64,000 nt of DNA, taken from Corallococcus soli (GTDB taxonomy: Bacteria; Myxococcota; Myxococcia; Myxococcales; Myxococcaceae). This document shows positions 32,998-59,557 of the stretch, one piece after another. The stretch covers positions 1,054,001-1,118,000 of the forward strand of contig NZ_JAAIYO010000001.1 of assembly GCF_014930455.1 (NCBI RefSeq), written 5' to 3'. A program made the translations under genes and the position numbers. The notes under the pieces were generated by a model. That model saw only the letters and a list, made by a program, of their open reading frames with translations. It ran no database searches and was not told the origin of the DNA. Position 1 is the first letter of the stretch; each line of letters starts with the position of its first letter.

Positions 32998-33740
<743 letters not shown>

Positions 33741-33992
33741 GCGTCCGGACGCTGCGTGCGTCTCCAGATGCTCCGGGTGAAGTTGGCCCCGCTTTTGCGT
33801 CGACGTTTGAACACAGGGCGAGCAGGCGGGGCTTGCGGCAACCTTCTGGATTTCTTGCGGATTTTTCACACTGCAAATCAAGAACCATGCGCAGGGGCAC
33901 TGGACGTGGCCGGATCGCCTTGTTAGGTTGGCACGGTCCTTGATGGGAATCCCCATCGAGTCGGCACGCACGTCTTCTGGAGACGCCCCCAC
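33741..33992. other. 252-bp lptB-rpoN intergenic region with AT-rich patch
   Basis: Begins with a 12-bp palindrome gcgtccggacgc at 33741-33752, possibly the end of the lpt transcript. It then holds an AT-rich island (33845-33895) with GGATTT at 33848 and 33859 and CAAATC at 33874, and a sigma-54-like motif at 33929. A dyad gatggg/cccatc (33942-33957) lies across the expected transcription start. The length and AT content mark this as the rpoN promoter region. Confidence 0.6.
33929..33944 (+). promoter_or_regulatory. Sigma-54-like -24/-12 motif upstream of rpoN
   Basis: The bases TGGCACGGTCCTTGAT match the consensus TGGCACG-N4-TTGCW at every position except the C of the -12 GC, which is A. 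Transcription would begin near 33955, 38 bases before the rpoN ATG. The altered -12 element may weaken or abolish it; experimental mapping is needed to decide. Confidence 0.45.
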
Positions 33993-35513
33993 ATGGCGAT
34001 GGAACTCAAACAGAGCCTGAAGCTCGCGCAGCAACTGGTGATGACGCCCCAGCTGCAGCAGGCCATCAAGCTCCTCCAGCTCTCTCGGATGGAACTCCTG
34101 GACCAGGTCCGGGAGGAGATGGAGCAGAACCCGCTCCTGGAGCAGCCCGAGGAGGGCATGCCGGGCGAGGTGAGCGAGAAGGAGCCGGGCGAGGCCTCCC
34201 TGGAGGCCGACAACGCCGAGGCCGTCCGCGACGGCGACATGCCGTCCGCCAATCCTGAAACTGCCCAGGAATTCAAGGCAGACGGGGAAGGCCCGCCGGA
34301 AATCGACTGGGAGGCCTACCTCAACAGCTACCAGTTCAACGAGCCCACCACCGCCTCCAACAAGGGCAACGTGGCCACGGACGACCTGCCGTCGTTCGAA
34401 GCCAACATGGTGAAGAAGGAGGACCTGGTCGACCACCTCCAGGAGCAGCTGGGCACGCTGCGGCTCAACGAGGCCGAGCGCCGCGTGGCGGTGCTCATCC
34501 TGGGCAACCTGGACGACGACGGCTACCTCAAGCTCCCGGACGTGGAGGGCGACCCGCTCATCCGCCTGTCCAACGAGGCGGACGTGCCCATGCACGTCGC
34601 CGAGCGCACCCTGCGCCGCATCCAGAACCTGGAGCCCCGCGGCTGTGGCGCGCGCGACCTCCAGGAGTGCCTGCTCATCCAGCTCCAGGCGATGAAGGAC
34701 CCCAACGCCGCGCTGATGGGGCTCATCATCAAGCGGCACATGAAGTACCTGGAATCCAAGAACCTGCCGGCCATCGCCAAGGACCTCAAGGTCACCCTGG
34801 AAGAGGTCGTGGCGGCGGCGAAGCTCCTGCCCAAGCTGGACCCGCGGCCGGGCCGCAACTTCAGCGGGGACGACGCGCAGTACATCACCCCCGACGTCTT
34901 CGTCTACAAGCTGGGGGAGGAGGACTACACCGTCGTCCTCAACGACGACGGCCTGTCCAAGCTGCGCATCTCCGGCATGTACCGGAACGCGCTGAAGAAC
35001 GGCGCGGTGAGCCCCGGCCAGACGAAGGACTTCATCCAGGACAAGCTGCGCAGCGCGATGTGGCTCATCCGCTCCATCCACCAGCGGCAGCGGACCATCT
35101 ACAAGGTCACCGAGAGCATCGTGAAGTTCCAGAAGGACTTCCTGGACAAGGGCATCGCGCACTTGAAGCCCCTCATCCTGCGCGACGTGGCGGAGGACAT
35201 CGGCATGCACGAGTCCACCGTGAGCCGCGTCACCACGAGCAAGTACGTCCACACGCCGCAGGGCATCTTCGAGCTGAAGTACTTCTTCAACTCGTCCATC
35301 GCGCGCGTGTCCGGCGAGGACACGGCCAGCGAGGCCGTGAAGCACCACATCAAGCAGCTCGTGTCGCAGGAAGACTCGCGCAACCCGTACTCGGACCAGA
35401 AGATTGTCGAGCTGCTGCGCTCGCAGGGCACCGAAATCGCCCGGCGCACGGTGGCCAAGTACCGCGAGGTGCTGGGCATCCTCCCCAGCAGCAAGCGCAA
35501 GCGCTACTACTAG
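33993..35513 (+). CDS. rpoN: RNA polymerase sigma-54 factor RpoN
   Basis: 506 aa. Region I (residues 1-50) is Gln/Leu-rich, MELKQSLKLAQQLVMTPQLQ with QAIKLLQLSRMELLDQVREE. An acidic region II runs from about 50 to 120. The core-binding domain follows, with LRRIQNLEPRGCGARDLQEC. The DNA-binding part has the HTH segment LRDVAEDIGMHESTVSRVTT, and the RpoN box ARRTVAKYRE is at 483-492. It directs transcription from -24/-12 promoters with enhancer-binding activators, such as the one at 57443. In M. xanthus rpoN is known to be essential. It sits after lptB, with hpf and ptsN downstream after three intervening genes. Confidence 0.97.
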   Translation: MAMELKQSLKLAQQLVMTPQLQQAIKLLQLSRMELLDQVREEMEQNPLLEQPEEGMPGEVSEKEPGEASLEADNAEAVRDGDMPSANPETAQEFKADGEGPPEIDWEAYLNSYQFNEPTTASNKGNVATDDLPSFEANMVKKEDLVDHLQEQLGTLRLNEAERRVAVLILGNLDDDGYLKLPDVEGDPLIRLSNEADVPMHVAERTLRRIQNLEPRGCGARDLQECLLIQLQAMKDPNAALMGLIIKRHMKYLESKNLPAIAKDLKVTLEEVVAAAKLLPKLDPRPGRNFSGDDAQYITPDVFVYKLGEEDYTVVLNDDGLSKLRISGMYRNALKNGAVSPGQTKDFIQDKLRSAMWLIRSIHQRQRTIYKVTESIVKFQKDFLDKGIAHLKPLILRDVAEDIGMHESTVSRVTTSKYVHTPQGIFELKYFFNSSIARVSGEDTASEAVKHHIKQLVSQEDSRNPYSDQKIVELLRSQGTEIARRTVAKYREVLGILPSSKRKRYY

Positions 35514-54915: not shown

Positions 54916-57446
54916 GTCCCAAGACCTACAGCGAGCAGGCGCTGCGCGCCCTGGTGGAACCCTTCGCCAACCCCGTGCTGGTGCTGGACGGGGAGGGGCG
55001 CGTGCGCGTCTGCAACGACGGGTACGCCGAACTGCTGGGCCTCCCCCGCGACCAGGTGGAGGGCCATTCCTTCCTCGACTTCGTGCAGGCGGAGGAGCGC
55101 AGCCGCCTGGCGGAGCGCTACCAGCGGCTGGCCACGGGCTCGCCGCTGGACGGGCGCACGCAGCTCTACCGGGTGACCAGCACCCAGGGCCGCATGACGG
55201 AGGTCTCCGTGCAGGCCACGCAGGTGCAACTGGACGGCGGGGGCTACGGGCTGCTGCTCTGCTGCCTCGTCCAGACGCAGCGGCCCCTGGAGCTGGCGGT
55301 GGCGGAGCGGCTGGTGGACACGTCCGCGGGGCTCGTGTCCGCGCGCTCGGAGGAGGCGGTGCGGCGCGTGGCGCTGGCGGGCCTGGAGGGCGCGGGGTTC
55401 CGGGCCCGGCTGCTGCGCTGGGAGGGCACGCGGCTGGTGGTGCGTGACGGGGTGTCCCCGCCCGCGGACGCGCACCTGGCGCTGGAGGCGCTGTCGGACG
55501 GGCGGCCGGTGTTCGGCGGAGCGGACCACGCGGAGCCCACGCACGCGTACCTGCCGGTGGGCGGGCCGCAGTCGGAGGTGCTGTGGGTGGCGGGGCCGTG
55601 GGTGGCGCCCCGGCATGGCTCGGTGCTGACGCTGTTCGCGAAGGTGGTGGGCGCGGCGCTCGCGGACGTGCACCTGCAGGCGGACGGCGCCCGCAGCCGC
55701 TGGGAGGTGGAGGCGGTGGCGGAGATGGCGCGCTTCGTCGCGCAGCCGGTGCCTCCGCCGCCGGAGCGGTTCCTCGCCCGGGTGGCGGAGCTGCTGAAGG
55801 CCCAGGCGGTGGCGCTGCACCTGGTGCCGGCGCCGGGCCAGCCTCCCCAGCTCTCCCATCAGGTGGGGCTGGAGGACGAGGGCCAGGCCCAAGGCCAGGC
55901 CGGCGTCGGCGTGGACGTGGAGCGCCTCACGGCCGTGCTGGTGACGTCGTCGCTCCGGCTGGACGGGGGCGTGGTGTCCTCGGAGGTCCAGGGCCGCATG
56001 CTGGAGACGCTGTCCCAGGGCCGCTTCGGCTCCGGAGCGGCGGCGCGGCTCACCCGGGGCGGCGAGGGCGTGGGCGCGGTGCAGGCGCTGCGCTCGAAGG
56101 AGAGGCCCTTCGACGAGCGCGACGCGCGGCTGCTGGCCACGCTGGCGGAGCTGCTGGTGACGTTGCTGGAGCAGCGCCGCCTCCGGGCGGAGTCCGCGCG
56201 CCAGCTCACGGAGACGCGCCTGCTGCTGGACCTGGCGCGCACCACGTCGGGCGTGCTGGAGACGGCGAGCATCCTGGACGTCGCGTCCGACTTCCTCGTG
56301 CACCTGCTGGACGTGTCCAACTGCTTCATCCTGCTCTACGACGAGCAGGCCAAGGTGCTCCGGGGCGCGGCGGCGTCGGTGGCGCACCGGGACCTGTTCC
56401 GCACGGTGGTGGTGCCGCTCGACAGCGACGACCTGGCCGCGCGAGTGGCCCGGGAGCGCAAGCCCATCGCCATCGAGGACCTCACGCGGGGGGGCGCGTC
56501 CACCGGCACCGGGCTCGTCGAGCGGCTGGGGGAGAAGGCCCTGCTGGGCCTGCCGCTCACGTCGCGCGAGGAGCTCATCGGCGTGGTGATGGTGGACGAC
56601 GTGCGCGGCCCCCGGCCCTTCGGCCCGGAGCTCATCGACCTGGCGGAGGCCACATGCGGACAGCTGGCCTTGTCCATCGCCAACGCGCGGCTGTACGAAT
56701 CGCTGTGGGCCAGCTACGCGGAGCTGGCCGCCACGCGCGCGGAGATGGTGAAGCGCGAACGACTGGCTGCCCTGGGCGAGCTGTCCGCCATCGTCGCGCA
56801 CGAGGTGCGAAACCCCCTGGGCGTCATCTTCAACGCGGTGGCGTCGCTGCGGCGGATCATGAAGCCGGAGGGGGACGCCGCCATGCTGCTGGACATCGTG
56901 GGGGAGGAGAGCGACCGCCTCAACCGGATGGTGGGCGCCCTGCTGGACTACACCCGCCCGCGCAACCCGGTGCTCCAGAACGAGGACCTGCCGCGCGTGC
57001 TCCAGGACTCGCTGGAGGCGGCGAAGGCGCAGGGGGCCACGGAGCGGCCGGTGCGCATCTCCTCGGAGGTGGAGGAGGGCATGCCGCCGGTGCCCATGGA
57101 CCGGCGTCTCATCCGCCAGGCCCTCCTCAACGTGGCCGTCAACGCCATCCAGTCCATGCCCCAGGGCGGCCAGGTGCAGGTGAAGGCCCGCCGCGAGGCG
57201 TACGGCGGCCGTGAACAGCTGCGCATCGACGTGATGGACCAGGGGCCGGGCATCCCGGCCGAGCTGCTCCACCGCGTCTTCGAACCCTTCTTCACCACCA
57301 AGGCCCAGGGCACCGGCATGGGCCTCGCCGTGGTGAAGCGCATCCTGGAGGATCACCGCGGCGAAATCGCCGTGGAGAGCGTGCCGGGACGCGGTACTAC
57401 GTTCATCTTCCGGCTGCCCCTCACGCAGCCCCTGTCCTTTCCATGA
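54912..57446 (+). CDS. pxrK: Sensor histidine kinase with PAS and GAF domains (PxrK candidate)
   Basis: 844 aa, no transmembrane segments, so probably cytoplasmic. A PAS domain lies at about 8-130 (FANPVLVLDGEGRVRVCNDG), then GAF-like regions at about 130-260, 270-430 and 440-610. A coiled-coil-like linker leads to HisKA with His in LSAIVAHEVRNPLGVIFNAV near 629, and HATPase boxes NVAVNAIQSMPQGG (N), DQGPGIPAE (G1), FEPFFTTKA (F) and GTGMGLAVVKRI (G2). It would phosphorylate the activator whose ATG overlaps its stop. It sits directly upstream of that activator and of the sRNA, as pxrK does in M. xanthus; the name rests on synteny. Confidence 0.85.
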   Translation: MSPKTYSEQALRALVEPFANPVLVLDGEGRVRVCNDGYAELLGLPRDQVEGHSFLDFVQAEERSRLAERYQRLATGSPLDGRTQLYRVTSTQGRMTEVSVQATQVQLDGGGYGLLLCCLVQTQRPLELAVAERLVDTSAGLVSARSEEAVRRVALAGLEGAGFRARLLRWEGTRLVVRDGVSPPADAHLALEALSDGRPVFGGADHAEPTHAYLPVGGPQSEVLWVAGPWVAPRHGSVLTLFAKVVGAALADVHLQADGARSRWEVEAVAEMARFVAQPVPPPPERFLARVAELLKAQAVALHLVPAPGQPPQLSHQVGLEDEGQAQGQAGVGVDVERLTAVLVTSSLRLDGGVVSSEVQGRMLETLSQGRFGSGAAARLTRGGEGVGAVQALRSKERPFDERDARLLATLAELLVTLLEQRRLRAESARQLTETRLLLDLARTTSGVLETASILDVASDFLVHLLDVSNCFILLYDEQAKVLRGAAASVAHRDLFRTVVVPLDSDDLAARVARERKPIAIEDLTRGGASTGTGLVERLGEKALLGLPLTSREELIGVVMVDDVRGPRPFGPELIDLAEATCGQLALSIANARLYESLWASYAELAATRAEMVKRERLAALGELSAIVAHEVRNPLGVIFNAVASLRRIMKPEGDAAMLLDIVGEESDRLNRMVGALLDYTRPRNPVLQNEDLPRVLQDSLEAAKAQGATERPVRISSEVEEGMPPVPMDRRLIRQALLNVAVNAIQSMPQGGQVQVKARREAYGGREQLRIDVMDQGPGIPAELLHRVFEPFFTTKAQGTGMGLAVVKRILEDHRGEIAVESVPGRGTTFIFRLPLTQPLSFP

Positions 57447-58885
57447 CCGACGCGACCACGCCGATTCCCCGAGGACGCATCCTCGTGGTGGATGACCAGT
57501 GCAACATGCGCGCCACCACCGCGCTGCTCCTGCGCGGCGAGGGCTACACCGTCTCCGAGGCCGCCACCGGCGAGGAGGCCCTGGGCGTGCTCGCGCAGGG
57601 GCAGGTGGACCTGCTGCTCACGGACCTGAAGATGGAGCCCATGGACGGGCTCACGCTGCTCAAGCGCGGACTGGAGGTGTCCCCGCGCCTGCAGGCCATC
57701 ATGATGACGGCCTTCGGCTCCATCGAGAGCGCGGTGGAGGCCATGCGCCTGGGGGCGTACGACTACGTCACCAAGCCCTTCAAGGAAGGTGAGCTGCGCT
57801 ACCGCGTGGAGCGCGCGCTGGAGCGGGCCAAGCTCCAGTCGGCGGTGGACAACTTCGCCACCGAATTCAACCAGCGCCACGGCCTGTCCGCGCTGGTGGG
57901 CCGCAGCCAGGCGATGCGGGAGCTCACCACGCGCCTGCTGCGCGTCGCGCAGAGCGACGCCACCGTCCTCATCCAGGGCGAGAGCGGCACGGGCAAGGAG
58001 CTGGTGGCGCGGGCCCTCCACACGCACAGCCGGCGCAGCGGCCAGCCCTTCGTGCCCGTCAACTGCGCGGCCATCAGCGAGACGCTCCTGGAGAGCGAGC
58101 TGTTCGGCCACGCCAAGGGCGCCTTCACCGGCGCGGTGAAGACGCGCCGGGGCCTCTTCGAGGAGGCATCCGGCGGCACGCTCTTCATCGACGAGGTGAC
58201 GGAGACCAGCCCCACCTTCCAGTCCAAGCTGCTGCGCACGCTGCAGGACGGCGAGGTGCGCCGCGTGGGCGAGTCCACCGCGCTGCGCGTGGACGTGCGC
58301 ATCGCGGCGGCCACCAACCGCGACATCGAGCTGGAGGTGCGCGAGAAGCGCTTCCGCCAGGACCTCTACTACCGCCTCAACGTGGTGATGCTGCGCGTGC
58401 CCCCGCTGCGCGAGCGTCTGGAGGACGTGCCCGCCCTGGCGGAGCACTTCCTGCAACGCTCCAACAACCGCAGCCCCCGGCCCCGGCGCCTGTCCGCCTC
58501 CGCCGTGGAGCACCTGATGACGTACAACTTCCCCGGCAACGTGCGCGAGCTGGAGAACCTGGTGGAGCAGGCCGCCGCGCTCGCGGAGGCGGACGAGCTG
58601 CTGCCCGAGGACTTCCCGCTGCGCCCCCAGGCCCGCGTGCTGCCGGCCGCCACCTCCACGGGCCTGCCCCCCACGGACGCCCGCGCCAGCGGCCCGGAGG
58701 CCACCGGCCCCACGCTGGCGGAGGTGGTGGAGGAGGCCGAGCGCCGCGCCATCGTCCAGGCCCTGGACCGCCACGGTGTGGACCTGGCCCGCGTGGCCGA
58801 CGAGCTGGGCGTCTCCTCCACCACGCTGTGGCGGAAGATGAAGCGCCTCAACCTCCGGCCTCCCACCGGCGCCCCCCGCGAGTAG
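57443..58885 (+). CDS. pxrR: NtrC-family sigma-54 activator, response regulator (PxrR candidate)
   Basis: 480 aa. The receiver domain (13-125) has RILVVDDQCNMRATTALLLR, the phospho-Asp in DLLLTDLKMEP near 60, and Lys in TKPFKEGE near 109. The AAA+ domain has Walker A GESGTGKELVAR near 178, GAFTGAVKTRRG near 226 (sigma-54 contact), Walker B GGTLFIDEVTE near 244, and the arginine-finger region. A Fis-type HTH ends the protein (LARVADELGVSSTTLWRKMK, about 445-465). It binds enhancers and remodels the RpoN holoenzyme. The sRNA 260 bp downstream has a sigma-54 promoter and enhancer-like dyads, a natural target. Naming follows the M. xanthus locus order. Confidence 0.88.
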   Translation: MTDATTPIPRGRILVVDDQCNMRATTALLLRGEGYTVSEAATGEEALGVLAQGQVDLLLTDLKMEPMDGLTLLKRGLEVSPRLQAIMMTAFGSIESAVEAMRLGAYDYVTKPFKEGELRYRVERALERAKLQSAVDNFATEFNQRHGLSALVGRSQAMRELTTRLLRVAQSDATVLIQGESGTGKELVARALHTHSRRSGQPFVPVNCAAISETLLESELFGHAKGAFTGAVKTRRGLFEEASGGTLFIDEVTETSPTFQSKLLRTLQDGEVRRVGESTALRVDVRIAAATNRDIELEVREKRFRQDLYYRLNVVMLRVPPLRERLEDVPALAEHFLQRSNNRSPRPRRLSASAVEHLMTYNFPGNVRELENLVEQAAALAEADELLPEDFPLRPQARVLPAATSTGLPPTDARASGPEATGPTLAEVVEEAERRAIVQALDRHGVDLARVADELGVSSTTLWRKMKRLNLRPPTGAPRE

Positions 58886-58981
58886 GTGCAGGTGACCTCC
58901 GGGGGCGGGTGTCCCGGCGGTGTCCCACCCCCCTTCAGGGTGAGTGCAGATCCGAAATCGGGCCCGTTCAAGGATGAAAAA

Positions 58982-59001
58982 AACAAACCCTTGGATTTGT
59001 T
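58982..59001 (+). promoter_or_regulatory. Upstream dyad AACAAA-N8-TTTGTT (possible enhancer)
   Basis: Two 6-bp arms separated by 8 bp, centred about 153 bases before the predicted sRNA start. Its AT-rich sequence stands out in a 70 percent GC background. Spacing differs from the better dyad downstream, so it is a weaker candidate for activator binding. Confidence 0.4.
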
Positions 59002-59015
59002 GGGGCTTTTCAAAT

Positions 59016-59032
59016 CTGAAACCTGATTTCAG
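59016..59032 (+). promoter_or_regulatory. 17-bp palindrome CTGAAA-N5-TTTCAG (candidate activator-binding enhancer)
   Basis: Perfect 6-bp inverted arms with a 5-bp spacer, 17 bp in all, the same geometry as NtrC-type sites. It is centred about 121 bases upstream of the predicted sRNA start, which is typical enhancer distance. It lies between the sigma-54 activator gene and its likely target promoter. Confidence 0.6.
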
Positions 59033-59089
59033 CCCTGCAATGCCGGAAGGGTGGGGGCGCAATGTCGCCCTGTCGTCCAAGTGCCTGAG

Positions 59090-59101: not shown

Positions 59102-59118
59102 TCGCCCCGCTAAGGGGC

Positions 59119-59134
59119 TGGCACGGCACCTGCT
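59119..59134 (+). promoter_or_regulatory. Sigma-54 (-24/-12) promoter of the small RNA
   Basis: TGGCACGGCACCTGCT matches the consensus TGGCACG-N4-TTGCW with one mismatch (C for T before TGC). GG and GC have the exact required 10-base spacing. Transcription is expected near 59145. RpoN is encoded in the same window at 33993, and an activator with its kinase lies directly upstream. Confidence 0.8.
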
Positions 59135-59265: not shown

Positions 59266-59557
59266 CCGCTCCCTGAGTCCACGCCGCGCCCCAGCCAGCG
59301 CAGGCGCGCCAGCGTGGGCCGGGCGGGGAAGGGGAGGCGGGGACTCAGCGGCCTCCGTCCATTTCACTTCTGCAATGCACGCCGGCCCATGACGCGTGGG
59401 GCCACGCGTCACCCGCGTCACGCGGTGCGCCGCCCTCCTGCGTCATGGGCCACTCCGGTGGGGAGCCGGGCGCCGCCTTGACGGCCCCGCAACGACGACG
59501 CCCGCCGGGCCAGGGGCCGCAACGGGCGTCAGGTACCGCGAACCGCTGTCGCGGGGA
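59266..59557. other. Intergenic region between the sRNA and nuoN, rich in inverted repeats
   Basis: No gene seen. It holds ctgagtcc (59273) inverted as ggactcag (59341), and a larger perfect pair ggcccatgacgc (59384-59395) and gcgtcatgggcc (59440-59451). The 44 bp between the latter arms contain further nested palindromes (gcgtgg/ccacgc). Convergent transcription from pxr and nuoN meets here, so the structures may end the nuo transcript. Confidence 0.55.
59384..59451. repeat. Nested inverted repeat downstream of nuoN
   Basis: Perfect 12-bp arms enclosing smaller palindromes (gcgtgg/ccacgc at 59394-59407). It could fold as a large branched hairpin on either strand and act as terminator for nuoN (minus strand). 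No T-run is evident. Confidence 0.5.

Follow-up and report, generated by a model that had tools for sequence, protein, structure and literature searches.

The rpoN gene, which encodes σ54, lies at 33993..35513 on the forward strand of the window (the whole stretch of DNA analyzed, 64,000 nucleotides, from the 9.44-Mb genome G000), and its product contains all three σ54 domains (Pfam PF00309, PF04963, and PF04552). Its ATG is at 33993, and its upstream neighbor is an ABC-transporter ATPase gene with its 3′ end at 33740. The GC content at 33850–33949 is 53%, against ~60–75% in the surroundings, which bears out the AT-rich island noted in front of rpoN in a preliminary description of this DNA. 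The same genome carries, ~25 kb from rpoN, the gene for the Pxr sRNA (RF01812, 59159–59265), which is preceded by genes for an enhancer-binding response regulator (PxrR, 57443–58885) and a histidine kinase; these two genes are counterparts of pxrR (nla19) and pxrK as published, and σ54 dependence of the pxr promoter has already been predicted (available text of PMC5684412 and PMC5568312).

In M. xanthus σ54 is stated to be essential, and the Myxococcota are described as abundant in σ54 activators (available text of PMC12316311). The literature searched, mostly non-subscription papers, yielded no account of how the level of σ54 itself is set; the same search, with most subscription papers outside its reach, found no σ54 site described in a myxobacterial rpoN promoter. 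Cappable-seq start-site data for M. xanthus are public (E-MTAB-11042), but the paper that names them, PMC8844925, is silent in its main text on rpoN (MXAN_1061 in that species).

A Conserved −24/−12 Element Upstream of rpoN

A σ54-type −24/−12 element, TTGGCACGGTCCTTGAT, is located at 33928..33944 (+). Its core, TGGCACGGTCCTTGAT (33929–33944), is separated from the rpoN ATG by 48 bases and differs from TGGCACG-N4-TTGCW by a single mismatch, at the C of the −12 GC: the GG of the −24 element occupies 33930–33931, and GA stands in place of GC at 33942–33943. The preliminary description was therefore accurate as to the letters of this σ54-like motif, its place before the rpoN ATG, and the confinement of the variant base to the −12 C. 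In its exact form, TTGGCAYGNNNNYTGA is found at two places genome-wide (9.44 Mb), one of them being the rpoN site, and the reversed-pattern control does not occur at all. When up to three mismatches are allowed, the −24/−12 motif is common (77 matches in the window vs. 116 expected), so support for the rpoN element comes from its conservation rather than from any single sequence.

Within the order, 142 of 145 genomes searched gave an RpoN match; within the window's family, 94 of 96 did, and 91 of these could be examined. The pattern TTGGCA[CT][GA]-N4-[CT]TG is present upstream of rpoN in 91/91 family genes and 24/24 sampled genera, and when one sequence per genus is compared (n = 24), TTGGCA and TTG are invariant and the adjacent columns mostly hold ≤1 bit. 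All 91 sites have the GG at −24 and the G at −13 that are canonical for σ54, with N10 between them. A predominates at −12 (82 of the 91 sites), followed by T (6), G (2), and C (1); the canonical C is thus found at 1/91 rpoN sites, in contrast to the pxr σ54 promoter CTGGCACGGCACCTGCT (59118..59134, +), which was used as the comparison element and has the usual GC at −12 in 30/30 loci sampled from three genera of that family (g1, g5, and g19).

Beyond the family but within the order, none of the 22 rpoN genes with a placeable start has such a site (18, plus 4 from family f2; L124, one more stretch from f2, was dropped as no start was obtained). Farther out in the phylum, a set of 20 genomes has the pattern at four places, spread over three genomes and none positioned as in the family. 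One extra rpoN site was spotted by eye in a distant genome of the phylum, G179: on the reverse strand (L201), TTTTACC runs into TTGGCACGATTTTCGCA upstream of rpoN, in a similar layout and with GC at −12. In 80 named loci the pattern was present in 7, of which 4 are family members; the coding-sequence control also gave 7/80.

The sequence thereby establishes the presence, placement, and conservation of the element. The rpoN promoter very probably carries a σ54-type site, and we infer that σ54 would bind it despite the A at −12.

A Probable Overlapping σ70-Type Promoter

The −24/−12 element adjoins a second conserved pattern. A −35-like hexamer, TGGACG (33901..33906, +; 4/6 to TTGACA), is followed after a 17-bp spacer by an extended −10-like box, TGT-TAGGTT (33921..33929, +), the final two T's of which are the initial two T's of the −24 element. 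In 88/91 genomes a TAnnnT abuts or runs into the σ54 element, with TGn in front of it in 71/91, and a hexamer matching TTGACA at no fewer than four of six positions, mostly T[AG]GACG, stands exactly 17 bp before the −10-like box in 74/91. At spacings of 16–18 bp, such a hexamer (at least 4/6) is present in 20/24 genera, compared with 12% for random positions; genus g26 is without TGn, and its hexamers at the 17-bp spacing are TTGTGT or TTGTTT-like. A strict σ70 consensus scan upstream of rpoN called no promoter, so the case for a σ70-type promoter is made by conservation. On that footing, a σ70-type promoter probably overlaps the rpoN σ54 site, and the TAnnnT/−35 pattern would be a working rpoN promoter.

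Judged from position, transcription from this promoter would start near 33936, ~7 nt past the −10 box and inside the σ54 element, so that simultaneous binding of both polymerases should not be possible. The σ54 site thus lies inside the footprint of the putative σ70 promoter (TAnnnT in 88/91, −35 in 74/91). In two loci of genus g23, the most divergent in the family (L102 and L103), a TATTCT/TATCCT box lies ~8 bases farther upstream; there the σ54 element would cover the σ70 start and not the −10. An inverted repeat, CTTGATGGG/CCCATCGAG (33939–33960), begins within the −12 element and would form a 5′ hairpin of the proposed σ70 transcript; its stem has 9–10 pairs in g1, g3, g5, and g6 and 11 in g10, and is weaker or absent elsewhere.

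Leader Geometry

The σ54 start predicted from the position of the element is 33955 (+), 38 nt upstream of the ATG. Leaders from such a start would be 36–53 nt long across the ten core genera, and a productive σ54 start is possible in such Corallococcus-type genera. In 19/91 genomes, belonging to eight genera, at most 13 nt would remain between the predicted start and the gene, and for G090 and G054 the start is placed within rpoN itself; several of the short-leader genomes are incomplete assemblies. The best ribosome-site match starts upstream of the predicted σ54 start in 17/86 genomes, and in those 17 the leader from the predicted σ70 start is 17–32 nt. Leaderless translation could rescue some of the short-leader cases, but not the internal starts of G090 and G054. 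Retention of the element where translation from a σ54 start is hardly feasible favors binding as such, that is, occlusion, as what is conserved.

Comparison of the rpoN and pxr Upstream Regions

An AT-rich block at 33848..33879 (+) contains GGATTT at 33848–33853 and 33859–33864 and CAAATC at 33874–33879; upstream of pxr, GGATTT is found at 58993–58998 and CAAATC at 59011–59016. The preliminary description had pointed to these cores at both loci, where every letter was recovered, and had raised the possibility of an activator common to rpoN and the sRNA. The arrangement GGATTT-N5..30-CAAATC gives three matches at two places in the window, with 0.02 expected, and six matches at five places genome-wide, which makes it unlikely that the likeness between rpoN and pxr arises from composition alone. 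Comparison of the two regions across genomes did not sustain the resemblance: the arrangement is limited at rpoN to the window's genus, g1 (12/15 rpoN regions vs. 0/71 others), and is present in only 2/38 pxr regions.

What is conserved at pxr is a different repeat. Three TTCA-N4-TG[AC]A dyads lie upstream of it at 58967..59039 (+), starting at 58967, 59009, and 59028, and dyads of this form are found in 38/38 pxr regions, 36 of which have at least two. On the pxr side, CAAATC forms the center of the second dyad, and the GGATTT, present in 9/38, lies between dyads. An extra single dyad of the pxr type, TTCACTTCTGCAA, is located at 59363–59375, downstream of the Pxr gene. The dyads at 58967–59039 are likely the pxr enhancer, and PxrR would be the protein that reads them. 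Upstream of rpoN, the TTCA-N4-TG[AC]A dyad occurs as a single copy in 3/86 regions, all from g7, and the window's rpoN has none; in the form searched, tandem copies are confined to pxr in this genome. A looser form at rpoN, TTCA-N3..5-TGCAA, gives 43 matches in the genome vs. 37 for a control pattern and so provides no evidence. The rpoN region has a core of its own at 33859–33888, upstream of the −35 (GAa.t...aTGCAA.....gg.CC), conserved in nine core genera.

A shared PxrR site at rpoN is accordingly rejected by the cross-genome comparison, despite a likeness beyond chance in this genome, and by the same comparison the block at 33848–33879 is not a pxr-type enhancer. That PxrR or another pxr activator acts at rpoN through GGATTT and CAAATC has next to no probability: the arrangement is at both loci and at only five places in the genome, but it is found in few pxr regions and, at rpoN, solely within the window's genus, and the conserved pxr dyads are missing from 83/86 rpoN regions.

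Discussion

The best explanation of these observations, to which we assign a probability of roughly one half, is net negative autoregulation of rpoN through occlusion. In this model rpoN would be transcribed from its own σ70-type promoter (−35 at 33901–33906, TGn plus TAGGTT at 33921–33929, start at ~33936), and σ54 holoenzyme would bind the −24/−12 element at 33928–33944, which starts in the −10 box and covers the σ70 start. When free σ54 holoenzyme is plentiful, it would form a closed complex on the element and block σ70 polymerase, and rpoN would thereby restrict its own level. A σ54 site across the apparent ordinary promoter of rpoN suggests that σ54 throttles its own production, and we infer that the net effect would be repression. 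The σ54 autoregulation of rpoN raised in the preliminary description is upheld insofar as a conserved site stands at the gene's own promoter (91/91); as to its sign, repression is more probable than activation, given that a conserved σ70-type pattern overlaps the site and that almost no leader would remain in eight genera. Negative autoregulation of rpoN is known from P. putida and from rhizobia other than R. leguminosarum.

Several observations count against occlusion, among them the negative strict σ70 scan and the presence of incomplete assemblies among the short-leader genomes. In the available text of the E. coli study, a C occupied −12 in every σ54 motif tied to local repression (PMC4551910), unlike in 90/91 of the rpoN sites; the leader in the ten core genera is of ordinary length; and in M. 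xanthus rpoN mRNA increases during development and glycerol sporulation (available text of PMC6791715 and PMC2875238), which is accounted for more simply by positive autoregulation. Such positive autoregulation would follow if the element were a working enhancer-dependent σ54 promoter, with an activator at the AT-rich block and with the σ70 promoter providing basal transcription. Such an activator could be a protein other than PxrR, and development is one example of a setting in which it might act. Besides the developmental rise and the 36–53 nt leaders, the correct GG-N10-G spacing and the conserved block at 33848–33888, 67–107 bases upstream of the predicted σ54 start, agree with such a promoter, but we hold it to be rather doubtful: the −12 position is non-consensus in 90/91, the upstream block can be aligned only among the nine core genera, and eight genera keep the site though a σ54 start there would be useless or nearly so. 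This short-leader problem weighs equally on activator bypass, in which a −12 base other than C would permit weak, activator-free initiation by σ54 at rpoN and so a self-sustaining positive loop. Bypass transcription in E. coli accompanied a less conserved C at −12 (available text of PMC4551910), and 90/91 rpoN sites have A, T, or G there; an essential gene that relied on its own weak start would, on the other hand, be in a fragile position, and we consider bypass improbable.

Little probability likewise attaches to an explanation based on the inverted repeat. Its stem shows matching changes in g1, g3, g5, and g6, and the off-consensus −12 base is in keeping with it, but TTGGCACG, upstream of the stem, is conserved as much as TTG, and the GG-N10-G spacing and the T-rich run before TTG are typical of σ54 sites. 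Both TTGGCACG and TTG are kept in stemless genera; since these genera retain the element, an RNA hairpin as the sole cause of its conservation was rejected.

Returning to occlusion, the off-consensus −12 could also be a property of its design. As a conjecture that we regard as unlikely, the element might be a deliberately weak site, filled only once the true σ54 promoters are occupied, and would then serve as a saturation gauge; if so, the shut-off of rpoN would adjust total σ54 to how many targets it has, in organisms with an unusual wealth of σ54 activators. An element conserved in 91/91 genomes with an unusual, conserved −12 base offers a cheap and direct test of how a sigma factor may measure itself. 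The comparison also removes the idea of an activator common to rpoN and the developmental sRNA pxr, and indicates the TTCA-N4-TG[AC]A repeat as the more probable pxr enhancer.

Among known systems, the pxr promoter of myxobacteria shares with rpoN a −24/−12 element of the σ54 type (available text of PMC5684412 and PMC5568312); unlike rpoN, it combines GC at −12 (30/30) with upstream TTCA-N4-TG[AC]A dyads (38/38). In E. coli, σ54 blocks overlapping σ70 promoters through binding competition, and the arrangement at rpoN resembles that at argT, chaC, mdfA, and patA, where a −24/−12 site likewise lies in a σ70 footprint (available text of PMC4551910). The rpoN site differs from those occluded promoters, which have C at −12, in having A in 82/91, and the gene here is rpoN itself. 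In Rhizobium leguminosarum, a member of another phylum than the family studied, rpoN is reported to be negatively autoregulated (available text of PMC3538637), and rpoN would similarly lower its own expression here, as read from sequence alone.
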